Source: Pelosinus propionicus DSM 13327
GTDB taxonomy: Bacteria; Bacillota; Negativicutes; DSM-13327
Direction: 5' to 3'
Assembly: GCF_900114615.1 (NCBI RefSeq)
Contig: NZ_FOTS01000010.1
Span: 62,001-126,000, forward strand
DNA length: 64,000 nucleotides
A program made the position numbers and the translations under genes. Positions 51,853 to 57,862 of this stretch are shown here, piece by piece (position 1 is the first letter of the stretch; each line of letters begins with the position of its first letter). The notes under the pieces were generated by a model. It worked only from the letters and a program-made list of their open reading frames with translations, did not search any database and had not been told where the DNA came from.

Positions 51853-52741
<889 letters not shown>

Positions 52742-52751
52742 ATCTGTATTC

Positions 52752-52804
52752 CCTAATCTTTATAGTTGAAAAGTATATTTTTTTGAATTATAATAAAGAT
52801 TAGG
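52752..52804. promoter_or_regulatory. Overlapping divergent promoters for nifH and the plus-strand RNA
   Basis: Plus strand: TTGAAA (52766-52771), 17 bp, TATAAT (52789-52794). Minus strand: TTCAAA (52787-52782), 17 bp, TATAAA (52764-52759). The two promoters share the same 30 bp. An 11-bp inverted repeat, CCTAATCTTTA (52752-52762) and TAAAGATTAGG (52794-52804), surrounds both, with each arm at a predicted start site. The symmetry suggests one regulator or polymerase competition acting on both directions. No sigma-54 element is seen. Confidence 0.65.
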
Positions 52805-52890
52805 TACATCGAATAAGCCCTGGTGTCTGCTGGGGAATGTAAAGATTGCCACGCTTTATGGATACCGCAAATATCCATAAAGCATTTTTT
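52801..52890 (+). ncRNA. Candidate small RNA divergent from nifH
   Basis: A near-consensus sigma-A promoter predicts a start near 52801. GCTTTATGGATA (52853-52864) pairs exactly with TATCCATAAAGC (52872-52883) and is followed by ATTTTTT, a textbook terminator. The about 90-nt transcript has no open frame with a ribosome site. A possible 5' stem pairs GCCC with GGGG around TGGTGTCTGCT. No plus-strand gene follows, so it is not a leader. It matches no riboswitch family I recognise. A nitrogen-linked trans-acting RNA is inference from position. Confidence 0.65.
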
Positions 52891-52954
52891 CCTTTCAGGA
52901 AAGCTGTACACATATACTATAAAACCACCTCCTTATATAATAAGAAAAACACAG

Positions 52955-52992
52955 ATGGAGCTTATAAACGAAAATGCGTTTATAAGCTCCAT
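52955..52992. repeat. Perfect 16-bp inverted repeat beyond the small RNA
   Basis: ATGGAGCTTATAAACG (52955-52970) pairs exactly with 52977-52992 around AAAATG. A T-rich stretch follows at 53005-53014. It may be a second terminator for the plus strand or a processing hairpin. Confidence 0.55.
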
Positions 52993-53027
52993 TGCTCATG
53001 TACTTATTTTTTTTGCAAAAAGGCAAA

Positions 53028-53064
53028 GAAGCTCACAAGGGTTTAAAAACCACTCGTAAGCTTC
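53028..53064 (-). terminator. Probable terminator of the AEC transporter gene
   Basis: GAAGCT (53028-53033) pairs with AGCTTC (53059-53064) with an inner GGTTT/AAACC stem. On the minus strand the stem is followed by TTTGCCTTTTTG. Confidence 0.6.
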
Positions 53065-53179
53065 ATTGCTTCCTGCCTATGAACTTGAGCTGAGTATAGC
53101 ACATATTTTTTAGAGGTGCAATACCCTTTTAAAATAGTCGAAATATTAAAATTAAACCTTCCGTACCCACTATACTCGC

Positions 53180-54127
53180 TTAAAGATAATACTGAAAAAT
53201 CAACATATATACTGGGATTACAGCAATCGATGCAATTGTGGTTATCGTCGTCATGATCGCAGCATATTCTGCATCTGCCTGATAGGCTTTAGCCAAAATA
53301 GAGGTCTGAGTCATGACCGGAAGCATAGCTTGAATGATAAAGACTTTCTTCATTAAAACAGGCAGCGGCATTGCATAAGTGATTGCCATGACAATCAATG
53401 GTGAAATCACAAACCTCCCCAGAAGGATGGCTATCATATCCTTGCTGACCTTTATATTACTCAGTTTTACACCATATATCGCTATACCAATAAACAGCAT
53501 AGATAACGGTGTTGTCATGTTCCCAAGATACTTACAGGTATCGAGAATAAATTGCGGCAAACTGATATTACATAAGATAAGTATCATAGCCAGCAGAAAG
53601 CCTAGCAGAGGAGGAGAAAATACTTTTTTTATCACCTCAACTGCAGACACGTTATCTTTGCCTGAAGCGCCATCGTTACGAATGCCGCTTGCTCCAATGG
53701 TCCAAAATAAAGAAGTATTGGCAATATAATATAGCAGAACATAAGGAACACTTTGTTCGCCAAACAATGCTAAATTCACTGGCAGGCCAATAAAAATAGT
53801 ATTTGAAACAAAAAACATAGATCTAAATGTTCCCTGCCGGTTAGATTTTACTCTCAAAAGCTTAGAAGCTGCATATCCAACTGCATAACAGACAAACATA
53901 GAAGAATAGGGTACAACTAGTCCCGTCGCCAAATGCAGCAGCCCGTCTTTATTAAAAGTACTCATCAAATTCCATATCATATAAGTAGGTAAAGCGACAT
54001 TTGTAATTATACGGGAAAATAATTGAGAAGCGCCTTCATTAAACCATCCTTTACCTGTAAGAATATATCCTGTTATAATCATTAAAACAATACTAAAAAC
54101 ACTTTCAATTGTGTGAAAAATAATCAT
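53180..54127 (-). CDS. AEC-family (auxin efflux carrier type) transporter
   Basis: The 315-residue protein has about ten membrane helices in two inverted halves. The first contains LFSRIITNVALPTYMIWNL and the second PLSMLFIGIAIYG, both usual AEC features. Bacterial members move malonate, malate or other organic acids; the substrate here is unknown. It is upstream of the nif region on the same strand but is separated by hairpins and the divergent RNA, so it is not part of the nif operon. Confidence 0.88.
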   Translation of the reverse strand: MIIFHTIESVFSIVLMIITGYILTGKGWFNEGASQLFSRIITNVALPTYMIWNLMSTFNKDGLLHLATGLVVPYSSMFVCYAVGYAASKLLRVKSNRQGTFRSMFFVSNTIFIGLPVNLALFGEQSVPYVLLYYIANTSLFWTIGASGIRNDGASGKDNVSAVEVIKKVFSPPLLGFLLAMILILCNISLPQFILDTCKYLGNMTTPLSMLFIGIAIYGVKLSNIKVSKDMIAILLGRFVISPLIVMAITYAMPLPVLMKKVFIIQAMLPVMTQTSILAKAYQADAEYAAIMTTITTIASIAVIPVYMLIFQYYL

Positions 54128-54711: not shown

Positions 54712-55338
54712 TCATATTAATTGTAGTGCTGCTTTCGCTAATTGATCAGCTTGCTCATTATATTTATCTCCGGAATGAGCTTTTACTTTTACAAAAATGA
54801 CCTCTAATTGTTTCACTACCTGATCATAATATTGTTTATACTTTTTAGTCCCCTCCTGCTTAGCCTCCCATGCATTGGTACACCATTTTTCGATCCCCTC
54901 GTAGTCGTAATAAATAACAATGGTGCGCACCCCCTGCTCTAATGCATAGTTCATAGCAATTTTTGCACCCATGGTCTCTCCCGCAACATTGCGCATACCA
55001 CTAAGCTCCGGGTCATTGCCCTTCTGGCTAAAAGTAAGCTCTGCCCCTTTCCATAATATTACAACTCCAGCAGAATACTCCTTGGTTACAATGTTATAAC
55101 TGCCGTCAACATAAGCAAGCATCATATCATCAGAAAGCTGCTCTATAGGAAGTGAAGGCAATATTACATTGCAAGAACTCCCTGTTAGATACGCATTTGC
55201 TTCTTCTTCTGTTTTGAAGCTCTTATACTCGGCTCCCGAAAAACCTTTAATTTGCTCCTGGCATTGGGGCCAAGTATAAAACAAACCATTTTTACGTCCC
55301 TTCCTAACAGCATATACCTTTTTTTGTTTGTCTGACAT
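54712..55338 (-). CDS. Ribonuclease H with N-terminal viroplasmin/RNase HI-type domain
   Basis: The 208-residue protein has an N-terminal hybrid-binding domain (about 1-50: KKVYAVRKGRKNGLFYTWPQCQEQIKGFSGAEYKSF) and an RNase H domain. Candidate catalytic acidic residues lie in LAYVDGSY (Asp), NVAGETMGAKIA (Glu), IYYDYEGIEKW (Asp) and HSGDKYNEQADQLAKAA (Asp). It removes RNA from RNA-DNA hybrids. The ATG at 55338 is chosen because the hybrid-binding domain begins there, though its ribosome site is weak; the frame opens at 55383. Confidence 0.9.
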   Translation of the reverse strand: MSDKQKKVYAVRKGRKNGLFYTWPQCQEQIKGFSGAEYKSFKTEEEANAYLTGSSCNVILPSLPIEQLSDDMMLAYVDGSYNIVTKEYSAGVVILWKGAELTFSQKGNDPELSGMRNVAGETMGAKIAMNYALEQGVRTIVIYYDYEGIEKWCTNAWEAKQEGTKKYKQYYDQVVKQLEVIFVKVKAHSGDKYNEQADQLAKAALQLI

Positions 55339-55497
55339 ACTCTCTTTTACCACCCTTATCCTTTTTACTAAGAGAAAAGCCAATCACTTGCAGCTTGTCC
55401 AACATCAGCGTAGTGAATCCTACATCCCAAGCTCTTATCTCTTTATTTTATGCTTTTCTATTTGTAAAAAGCAAGTAGTAATCAAAATAGATTCTGC

Positions 55498-56257: not shown

Positions 56258-57424
56258 TTATGGCTTAACAGTAGTCTTAAATACTTGCTTACCATCTTTC
56301 ATTTCAATAATCACAACACTTTTTACAGCATCATGAGTAGCATTTAAAGTGGTGTTACCTGTTATTGCTGAATAATCTTTCGTCCCTGCCAATGCTTCAC
56401 GAATTTTTTCAGGTTCAAGGCTATTAGCCCGTTTGATGGCATCAATGACAATATTAGCTGCATCATAGCCAAGTACAGCCATCGCATCCGGCACTTGGCC
56501 ATATTCTTTTTTATATGCCTCTACAAAAGCTTGAGAAGTAGCACTAGTATCATCTACTGAATAATGATTAGTAAAATAAGTATTATTTAGTGCTGCACTA
56601 GTTCCAACTTCCACCAGTTTCGGTGAATCCCATCCGTCTCCACCTAAAATTGGCACAGTAATGCCGATTTCTCTAGCTTGTTTCACAATTTTCCCAACTT
56701 CTTCATAATAGCCTGGTATATAAATAATTTCAGCATTTAGTGCTTTTATTTTAGTTAATATGGTCTTAAAATCCTGATCTTTTTGCAAATATGCCTCTTC
56801 TGCTAAGATGCTCCCGCCACCTTTGGTATAGGCCTCTTTGAAAAAGGTAGATAATCCTTTGCTGTAATCACTACTATTATCTACTAGTATGACAGCCTTA
56901 TTCAAATGCAGTGTGTTCAAAACAAAGTTTGCCCCCACTGTACCTTGAAAAGGATCGATAAAACACACACGGAAAGTATAATTCTTAACTTTACCGCTTG
57001 CTTCATCCACTGTTACCTTAGGGTTTGTCGCACCTACGGCAACGAAAGGAATTTTAGTCGCTTCTGCCACACTGGAAGTGGCAATTGCATTTGAACTTGC
57101 AAAAATACCGGTAACTGCCACGACTTTATCCTGAGATGCAAGTTTGGTCATTGCATTGGCTGACTCGGAAGGTTCGCTTTTATTATCAGCAATCACAGCC
57201 TGAATCTGCTTTCCAAGAATACCGCCTTTTGCATTGGCCTCTTTTATGGCCATCTTAGCACCATTAGCAGATGAGGTGCCCATAGTTGCATTACCACCAG
57301 TCATTTCATTCAAAACACCAATCTTAATATCCTTAGAAGCAGAGTCACCGCATCCTGCCAAGACTCCAGCTGATATTAAAACAATTAGAGCCACCATCAA
57401 AAGTTTAAATCCCGATTTTGTCAT
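56258..57424 (-). CDS. ABC-transporter substrate-binding lipoprotein, branched-chain amino acid (LivJ/K) type
   Basis: The 388-residue protein has a lipoprotein signal with the lipobox LAGC near residue 24, so it is anchored outside the membrane. It then shows the type I periplasmic-binding fold: IKIGVLNEMTGGNATMGTSSANGAKMAIKEAN, VTGIFASSNAIATSSVAE and ILGGDGWDSPKL. The family binds branched-chain or other small amino acids. No permease or ATPase genes follow. A tandem glycine riboswitch upstream suggests that glycine, or a related compound, is the ligand or signal. Confidence 0.88.
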   Translation of the reverse strand: MTKSGFKLLMVALIVLISAGVLAGCGDSASKDIKIGVLNEMTGGNATMGTSSANGAKMAIKEANAKGGILGKQIQAVIADNKSEPSESANAMTKLASQDKVVAVTGIFASSNAIATSSVAEATKIPFVAVGATNPKVTVDEASGKVKNYTFRVCFIDPFQGTVGANFVLNTLHLNKAVILVDNSSDYSKGLSTFFKEAYTKGGGSILAEEAYLQKDQDFKTILTKIKALNAEIIYIPGYYEEVGKIVKQAREIGITVPILGGDGWDSPKLVEVGTSAALNNTYFTNHYSVDDTSATSQAFVEAYKKEYGQVPDAMAVLGYDAANIVIDAIKRANSLEPEKIREALAGTKDYSAITGNTTLNATHDAVKSVVIIEMKDGKQVFKTTVKP

Positions 57425-57597: not shown

Positions 57598-57680
57598 GGA
57601 TAAACAATTGAATACGCTAAAAGCGTTTTCAGCATCACAATATAAAGAGATCTAAATGATCCCTGTATATTACGAATTTG

Positions 57681-57862
57681 TCTCTGTCCTTTTGCCTGAG
57701 AGATTTGCCAGCAATATGATTGCTGTGTTTCACCTTCGGCGCCCTGTATAAGAGTCTCTCCAGAGTCCCGTCCATTTACGGTTCTACTCGGTACTCCAAG
57801 TGCCTGAGAGTTTTACTCCTTCGGCGGGCTATTAAGCCACTCTCCCGCAAACTTCATCCGGA
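57681..57862 (-). promoter_or_regulatory. Tandem glycine riboswitch
   Basis: On the minus strand the first aptamer reads GCGGGAGAGTGGC, then GCCGAAGGAGTAAAACTCTC and AGGCACTTGGAGTACCG. The second reads GGACTCTGGAGAGACTC, then GCCGAAGGTGAAA, then ATCTCTCAGGCAAAAGGACAG. These are the two consecutive gcvT-type glycine aptamers with their linker. Genes downstream of such switches usually degrade or transport glycine. Here the only downstream gene is a branched-chain-type binding protein. Confidence 0.95.

Follow-up and report, generated by a model that had tools for sequence, protein, structure and literature searches.

A structured small RNA opposite nifH recurs at nitrogenase operons across the Negativicutes and is a candidate regulator of nitrogen fixation

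A small RNA gene upstream of nifH in Pelosinus propionicus

The window (the whole stretch of 64,000 nt that we analysed, from Pelosinus propionicus DSM 13327) includes a Mo nitrogenase operon on the minus strand. Its genes, as identified with Pfam (and with NCBIfam for nifD and nifK), are nifH-nifI1-nifI2-nifD-nifK and two further nitrogenase components. nifH, which encodes the nitrogenase iron protein, comes first (51853-52674). Upstream of nifH and on the plus strand, there is a promoter TTGAAA-N17-TATAAT at 52766-52794 (-35 at 52766-52771, a 17-nt spacer, and -10 at 52789-52794), which matches the sigma-70 consensus at 11 of 12 positions, and an intrinsic terminator at 52853-52890, with a perfect 12-bp stem (52853-52883), a 7-nt loop (CCGCAAA), and T6 at 52885-52890. 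Both elements are present as an earlier note on this DNA had described them.

Between promoter and terminator we model a 5' domain (52803-52850) that comprises an outer helix P1 (52803-52810 with 52844-52850), an internal loop UCRAAUAARCC, and an inner helix P2 (52818-52820 with 52832-52834). Together with the terminator, this gives a small structured RNA of about 88 nt (52802-52890, plus strand) whose modelled start is the expected transcription start or at most one nucleotide off. The RNA is not followed by a gene on its own strand; the next gene, at 53180-54127, is encoded by the minus strand.

By themselves, the promoter and terminator patterns are not beyond chance: a pattern scan of the region from 50 to 56 kb found 13 promoter-like sites, versus 18.0 expected from shuffles, and 3 terminator-like sites, versus 3.6 expected. 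What lifts the small RNA above chance is its fold (a 92-nt RNA folds better than 200 of 200 dinucleotide shuffles, z = -4.1), along with its conservation in the family, the near-perfect promoters in relatives, and the covariation of its stems, which we describe below.

Other features of the window include an inverted repeat (CCTAATCTTTAT at 52752-52764 and ATAAAGATTAGG at 52793-52804) that flanks the RNA promoter and is found in part of the genus only. A gene for an RNase H with an N-terminal Cauli_VI domain (54712-55383, minus strand) lies near the nif cluster. A tandem glycine riboswitch (57674-57857, minus strand) lies upstream of a gene (56258-57424) that reads like the substrate-binding protein of an ABC transporter.

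The RNA is linked to nitrogenase operons

A DNA search found the RNA locus in 9 of the 10 genomes of the family. In the alignment of these loci, conservation extends over the -35 and -10 hexamers (nearly unchanged), the RNA body, and the terminator; the sequence between the two hexamers, by contrast, is variable. Across 64 related RNA units, the promoter matched at least 10 of the 12 consensus positions in 57 and was perfect (TTGAAA/TATAAT, 12/12) in 43. The spacing was 17 nt in 54 of those 57 units, and the -10 hexamer ends 5-7 nt upstream of the modelled RNA start. Shuffled upstream regions gave an 11/12 promoter in 0.2% of cases and never gave 12/12. The predicted promoter is near the sigma-A consensus.

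The covariance search of relatives that the earlier note had called for gave matches across the class. Our first covariance model, which was built from nine sequences and run on 300 genomes of Negativicutes, had matches in 36 of them, including a second locus in P. propionicus DSM 13327. At all 19 loci that we inspected, the RNA was near a gene for a nitrogenase iron protein, of the Mo type or the alternative type, and on the opposite strand. As a reference set, we used the 106 strong nifH loci in the same 300 genomes (TIGR01287, at least 446 bits). The first model had a match in front of 45 of these. Searching the upstream regions of the remaining 61 again, with filters off or with a second covariance model, added 22 RNA loci, for a total of 67 of 106. 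(This count treats L042 and L056 cautiously: at each, the terminator part matches but the 5' domain is atypical, so their assignment is uncertain.) The earlier note had named a lack of conservation upstream of nifH in relatives as a refutation of its proposal, and the RNA withstands this test well: these loci, with the RNA divergent from nifH, span about 24 genera.

Most nifH loci that lack the RNA belong to a single large family, in which the RNA is missing from Mo operons but present at some of the alternative-nitrogenase operons. The genome of the window has a third strong nifH copy, at G000:C78:71648-72460, that is also without the RNA and is preceded by a terminator-like hairpin on the sense strand.

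Some 15 genomes have one copy of the RNA at each of two nitrogenase loci. In P. propionicus, these are the Mo nif operon in the window and an Fe-only anfHDGK operon. Carriers of the RNA include Sporomusa silvacetica (strain DSM 10669), Sporomusa acidovorans, and Propionispora sp. 2/2-37. At Fe-only loci we also noticed a second, tandem RNA unit downstream of the first, mostly without a promoter of its own (L044:6931-7057, minus strand; likewise at L045, L083, L091, L057, L059, and L063).

When we ran the second model on 40 genomes in a more permissive search (E threshold 0.001), 68 of the 71 matches were at nitrogenase genes. Of the other three, the match in G045 is weak, and the remaining two, which come from Sporomusa-type genomes, look real. 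Both of these are near formate-tetrahydrofolate ligase (L289:6202-6289 and L291:645-728, both on the plus strand). One copy is divergent from an MFS transporter, which is followed by formate-tetrahydrofolate ligase; the other lies in the interval from formate-tetrahydrofolate ligase to an apparent gene for a formate/nitrite-type channel, and is divergent from the latter. Model matches in G053 (an integrase region) and G062 were judged to be false.

We found no matches outside the Negativicutes in a sample of 398 genomes from the phylum. In a pattern scan of all genomes, the RNA model fit, among the 115 stretches listed, only Negativicutes loci and a single contig of a Bacillota MAG, and that contig matches a genome of the window's own family. 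In the genomes searched, then, the predicted RNA is tightly linked to both Mo and Fe-only nitrogenase operons across the Negativicutes.

Selection on RNA structure and on the strand

Across 59 distinct sequences, 91.4% of cells were paired (80.3% in shuffles), 20 of 22 base pairs covaried, and 166 cells had changes on both sides (51.8 in shuffles and 15-31 in slid controls); because the alignment was fitted to the structure, these pairing and covariation counts are biased towards structure. Pairing was 97% in P2 and 76% in P1, and both helices covary. The terminator stem was 99% paired, with changes on both sides in 10 of its 12 pairs.

A strand test that is independent of this fitting compares G.U with A.C pairs. 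P2 and the terminator together contain 24 G.U pairs and 1 A.C pair, whereas selection for folding of the nif strand would have left the reverse, so the plus strand, opposite nifH, is the strand that folds. By covariation and strand asymmetry, both the 5' domain and the terminator hairpin are selected as RNA structures, and the selected strand is the one opposite nifH. The earlier note's view of the locus as a stand-alone plus-strand gene for a structured RNA with a link to nif is supported by the conserved promoter, body of about 88 nt, and terminator, by the covariation, and by the lack of a plus-strand gene behind it.

The sequence of the internal loop UCRAAUAARCC is strongly conserved across families while the helices around it change. 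The P2 loop is not conserved between families. At Fe-only loci, the terminator loop is either CCACGAA or UUCGUGG, which are exact complements of each other; at Mo loci, it is either CCGCAAA or UUUGCGG. These two exactly complementary orientations of the 7-nt loop occur in different genera, as if a palindrome had flipped.

The RNA gene lies within the predicted nif leader

The earlier note had also proposed that the RNA and nifH share a bidirectional promoter. This did not hold up: only the plus-strand hexamers are conserved there, the region has no conserved sense-strand promoter, and a conserved nif promoter is found on the far side of the RNA gene. This probable nif operon promoter (53093-53121, minus strand) is TTGCAC-N17-TATACT with TGTGC before the -10. 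In several genera, the same promoter (general form TTGCAN-N17-TATACT) lies 23-25 nt upstream of a hairpin with a hexaloop.

In the window, two such hairpins follow on the minus strand. The first, AAGC-AAUGAA-GCUU, overlaps a terminator (53020-53072) and resembles the P2 hairpin of ANTAR targets; the second, GAGC-AAUGGA-GCUU, overlaps a 16-bp terminator hairpin with a U-run (52946-52998). ANTAR target RNAs have a hexaloop with A at position 1 and G at position 4, and ANTAR control of nitrogenase was predicted earlier in Pelobacter carbinolicus (PMC3369931). Attenuators with an A1/G4 hexaloop that overlaps a terminator are present in 41 of 113 leaders, versus 1.3 expected from block shuffles (31 of 63 leaders with the RNA and 10 of 50 without it). 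The preceding P1 hexaloop hairpin of the classic ANTAR motif was found in few of the leaders, which is why we call these attenuators ANTAR-like. The source genome has two ANTAR regulators beside histidine kinases. These observations suggest ANTAR-type antitermination of nif in the Negativicutes that uses only the second hairpin of the ANTAR motif. (Besides the two in the window, examples of A1/G4 hexaloop hairpins that overlap terminators are those at L077, L093, L096, L101, L108, L109, L113, L119, L124, and L125.)

The distance from the attenuator to nifH is 259-655 nt if the RNA is present and 90-142 nt if it is not (setting aside two upstream extras), so the RNA gene sits between the attenuator and nifH. 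This layout strongly suggests that the nif mRNA begins about 420 nt upstream of nifH and continues into one or two ANTAR-like attenuators. In that case, the RNA would be more than divergent from nifH: it would be an antisense RNA of the nif leader.

Between the attenuators and the antisense of the RNA there is a Shine-Dalgarno-like motif, which in the window is AAGGAGGTGG (52925-52934, minus strand). From far to near, the order of the leader is promoter, one or two attenuators, AAGGAGGTG motif, antisense of the RNA, and nifH. Among leaders that have the RNA, 47 of about 64 contain the AAGGAGGTG motif; among the 50 that lack the RNA, none does. A start codon is absent behind 25 of the 47 motifs, and we rejected a leader peptide at this site as there was no consistent start codon or frame. 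The motif resembles an orphan Shine-Dalgarno sequence, and we speculate that it may bind ribosomes and stabilise the message.

Possible mechanisms

We think that the best mechanism is a cis-encoded antisense RNA that acts on the nif leader, and we would give this slightly less than an even chance. As is expected of a cis-encoded antisense RNA, the RNA has a promoter and a terminator to itself, and these are opposite the predicted target transcript. Since the nif mRNA apparently starts beyond the RNA gene, that gene would be transcribed through, and about 88 nt of the leader would be perfectly complementary to the RNA. This complementarity is no proof of the mechanism, as any RNA encoded opposite a leader is complementary to it. 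We envision that a nif transcript from the far promoter would pass the attenuators and then cross the small-RNA gene in antisense. The exposed terminator loop and the UCAAAUAAACC loop might be the first parts to meet their complementary sequences in the nif leader of their own operon, and the resulting duplex would lower (or, less likely, raise) the stability or the onward transcription of the nif mRNA. With a constitutive promoter, the RNA would impose a threshold, to be overcome only when antitermination of nif is complete.

The complementary orientations of the terminator loop fit a loop-loop interaction of the RNA with its complement, but the flipping of a palindrome without selection would give the same result. 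The effect is not simply to open or close the ribosome site of nifH. When we blocked the antisense region in folding predictions for 46 loci, the mean unpaired fraction of the site was 0.41, versus 0.42 when free, and openness rose at 6 loci and fell at 7; we therefore rejected the idea that the RNA frees or hides this site. We also rejected, as a general feature, a hairpin within the leader in which the region near nifH would pair with the complement of the 5' part of the RNA (mean z = -0.1 across 42 loci); it is seen at Sporomusa-like loci only. The promoter-less tandem units at Fe-only loci count against the cis-antisense account.

The RNA might instead act in trans by pairing with mRNAs from elsewhere in the genome, perhaps via Hfq at the (AAN)-rich loop, in which case its location at nif would serve only to couple its expression. 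It is a free-standing unit with a strong promoter and terminator, and the conserved, single-stranded UCRAAUAARCC resembles an A-rich Hfq site or a seed region. Also, the small RNAs that are known to regulate nitrogenase expression, namely NfiS and NfiR from Pseudomonas stutzeri and sRNA154 from Methanosarcina mazei, are reported to act in this way, by partial pairing in trans with the mRNAs of nifK, nifD, nifH, or nrpA (PMC9170634). However, there is a separate copy of the RNA at each nitrogenase operon within one genome, which a single trans-acting RNA would not need, and this is why we favor action in cis. The earlier note had suggested predicting targets at the starts of nif genes, and we saw no consistent pairing there: across 15 loci, pairing with the starts of nifH, nifI1, nifI2, nifD, and anfD was not above shuffles, with one exception (z = -2.7). 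Overall, we consider action in trans to be unlikely.

We give a similarly low probability to the idea that the 5' domain binds a regulatory protein or a metabolite, so that the RNA is a sponge or so that a ligand controls readthrough into a longer antisense RNA. If perfect pairing with the leader were all that mattered, the conservation of UCRAAUAARCC across families would not be needed, and this hints at a protein or some other partner. A compact domain followed by a terminator is consistent with such binding, and the Sporomusa-type copies before formate-related operons suggest a common signal. On the other hand, the P2 loop varies between families, the RNA matches no aptamer in Rfam, and by inspection we found no alternative pairing that would break the terminator. 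A sponge for ANTAR proteins in particular was rejected: hexaloop hairpins with A1 and G4 are present in just 1 of 62 RNA bodies.

Transcriptional interference, in which the opposing promoter hinders polymerase as it crosses the leader and the RNA itself is of little weight, would account for a near-perfect constitutive promoter that is directed against the nif leader. It would not account for the compensatory changes or the excess of G.U pairs, which indicate selection on the structure of the RNA, including its 5' domain, and we consider it quite improbable. Finally, a chance pattern (the scan by itself was at chance level) or a riboswitch that decayed after gene loss is refuted by conservation in about 24 genera with covariation and a promoter, and a riboswitch would lie in the sense-strand leader of the gene that it controls while no plus-strand gene follows at the loci inspected, so we put the probability of either at nearly nil.

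Comparison with known systems

The earlier note had named a match to a known cis-acting family as a refutation, and we found none: no family in Rfam 15 matched at its gathering threshold, and searching with permissive E-values gave no relevant match. Searching full-text literature, with thin coverage of subscription papers so that absence is no proof, we found no such RNA in the Negativicutes. A review of nitrogen-related non-coding RNAs describes nif-related examples only from Pseudomonas, Azotobacter, cyanobacteria, and Methanosarcina, and none for nif in Firmicutes (PMC9170634). From the conservation and covariation, we consider this previously unlisted RNA family, tied to the nitrogenase operons of Negativicutes, to be real, and we propose that the RNA is a candidate regulator of nitrogen fixation, both new and widespread. 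Because it is predicted at most nitrogenase operons of one class, Mo and Fe-only alike, it is a testable candidate for a missing layer of control.

We can also imagine a broader role, which we consider unlikely: these RNAs could be a new class of structured antisense RNA that is common to Mo and Fe-only nitrogenase operons and the formate-related operons of Sporomusa-type genomes. The internal loop would sense a common cellular signal and would gate the leader after ANTAR antitermination, as a second, RNA-based checkpoint on nitrogen fixation.

In contrast to NfiS, NfiR, and sRNA154, the RNA described here is encoded within the nif leader region but by the other strand, and it recurs at both Mo and Fe-only operons. 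The leaders of eut, nas, and ami operons are ANTAR targets, and the nif leaders resemble them in having A1/G4 hexaloops that overlap terminators. They differ in that the first hairpin is mostly not recognised. The small RNA, for its part, does not have the hairpins of an ANTAR target. EutX and Rli55 are sponge RNAs, each a small RNA that adjoins an ANTAR-regulated operon; our RNA, unlike these, is on the opposite strand and has neither ANTAR hairpins nor a riboswitch match. An ANTAR-like attenuator, an orphan Shine-Dalgarno-like motif, an antisense RNA gene, and nifH in succession would be an unusual regulatory stack.

There is also a parallel with CopA and RNA I, which are short, structured, cis-encoded antisense RNAs of an mRNA leader, with an exposed loop of 5-8 nt whose complement is in the target. 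Unlike these, the RNA here lies at a chromosomal metabolic operon, behind an antitermination attenuator, and has a conserved internal loop, and its pairing with the leader is only predicted. Like CopA and RNA I, it is short, constitutive-looking, and highly structured, and it is antisense to the predicted leader of the operon beside it.
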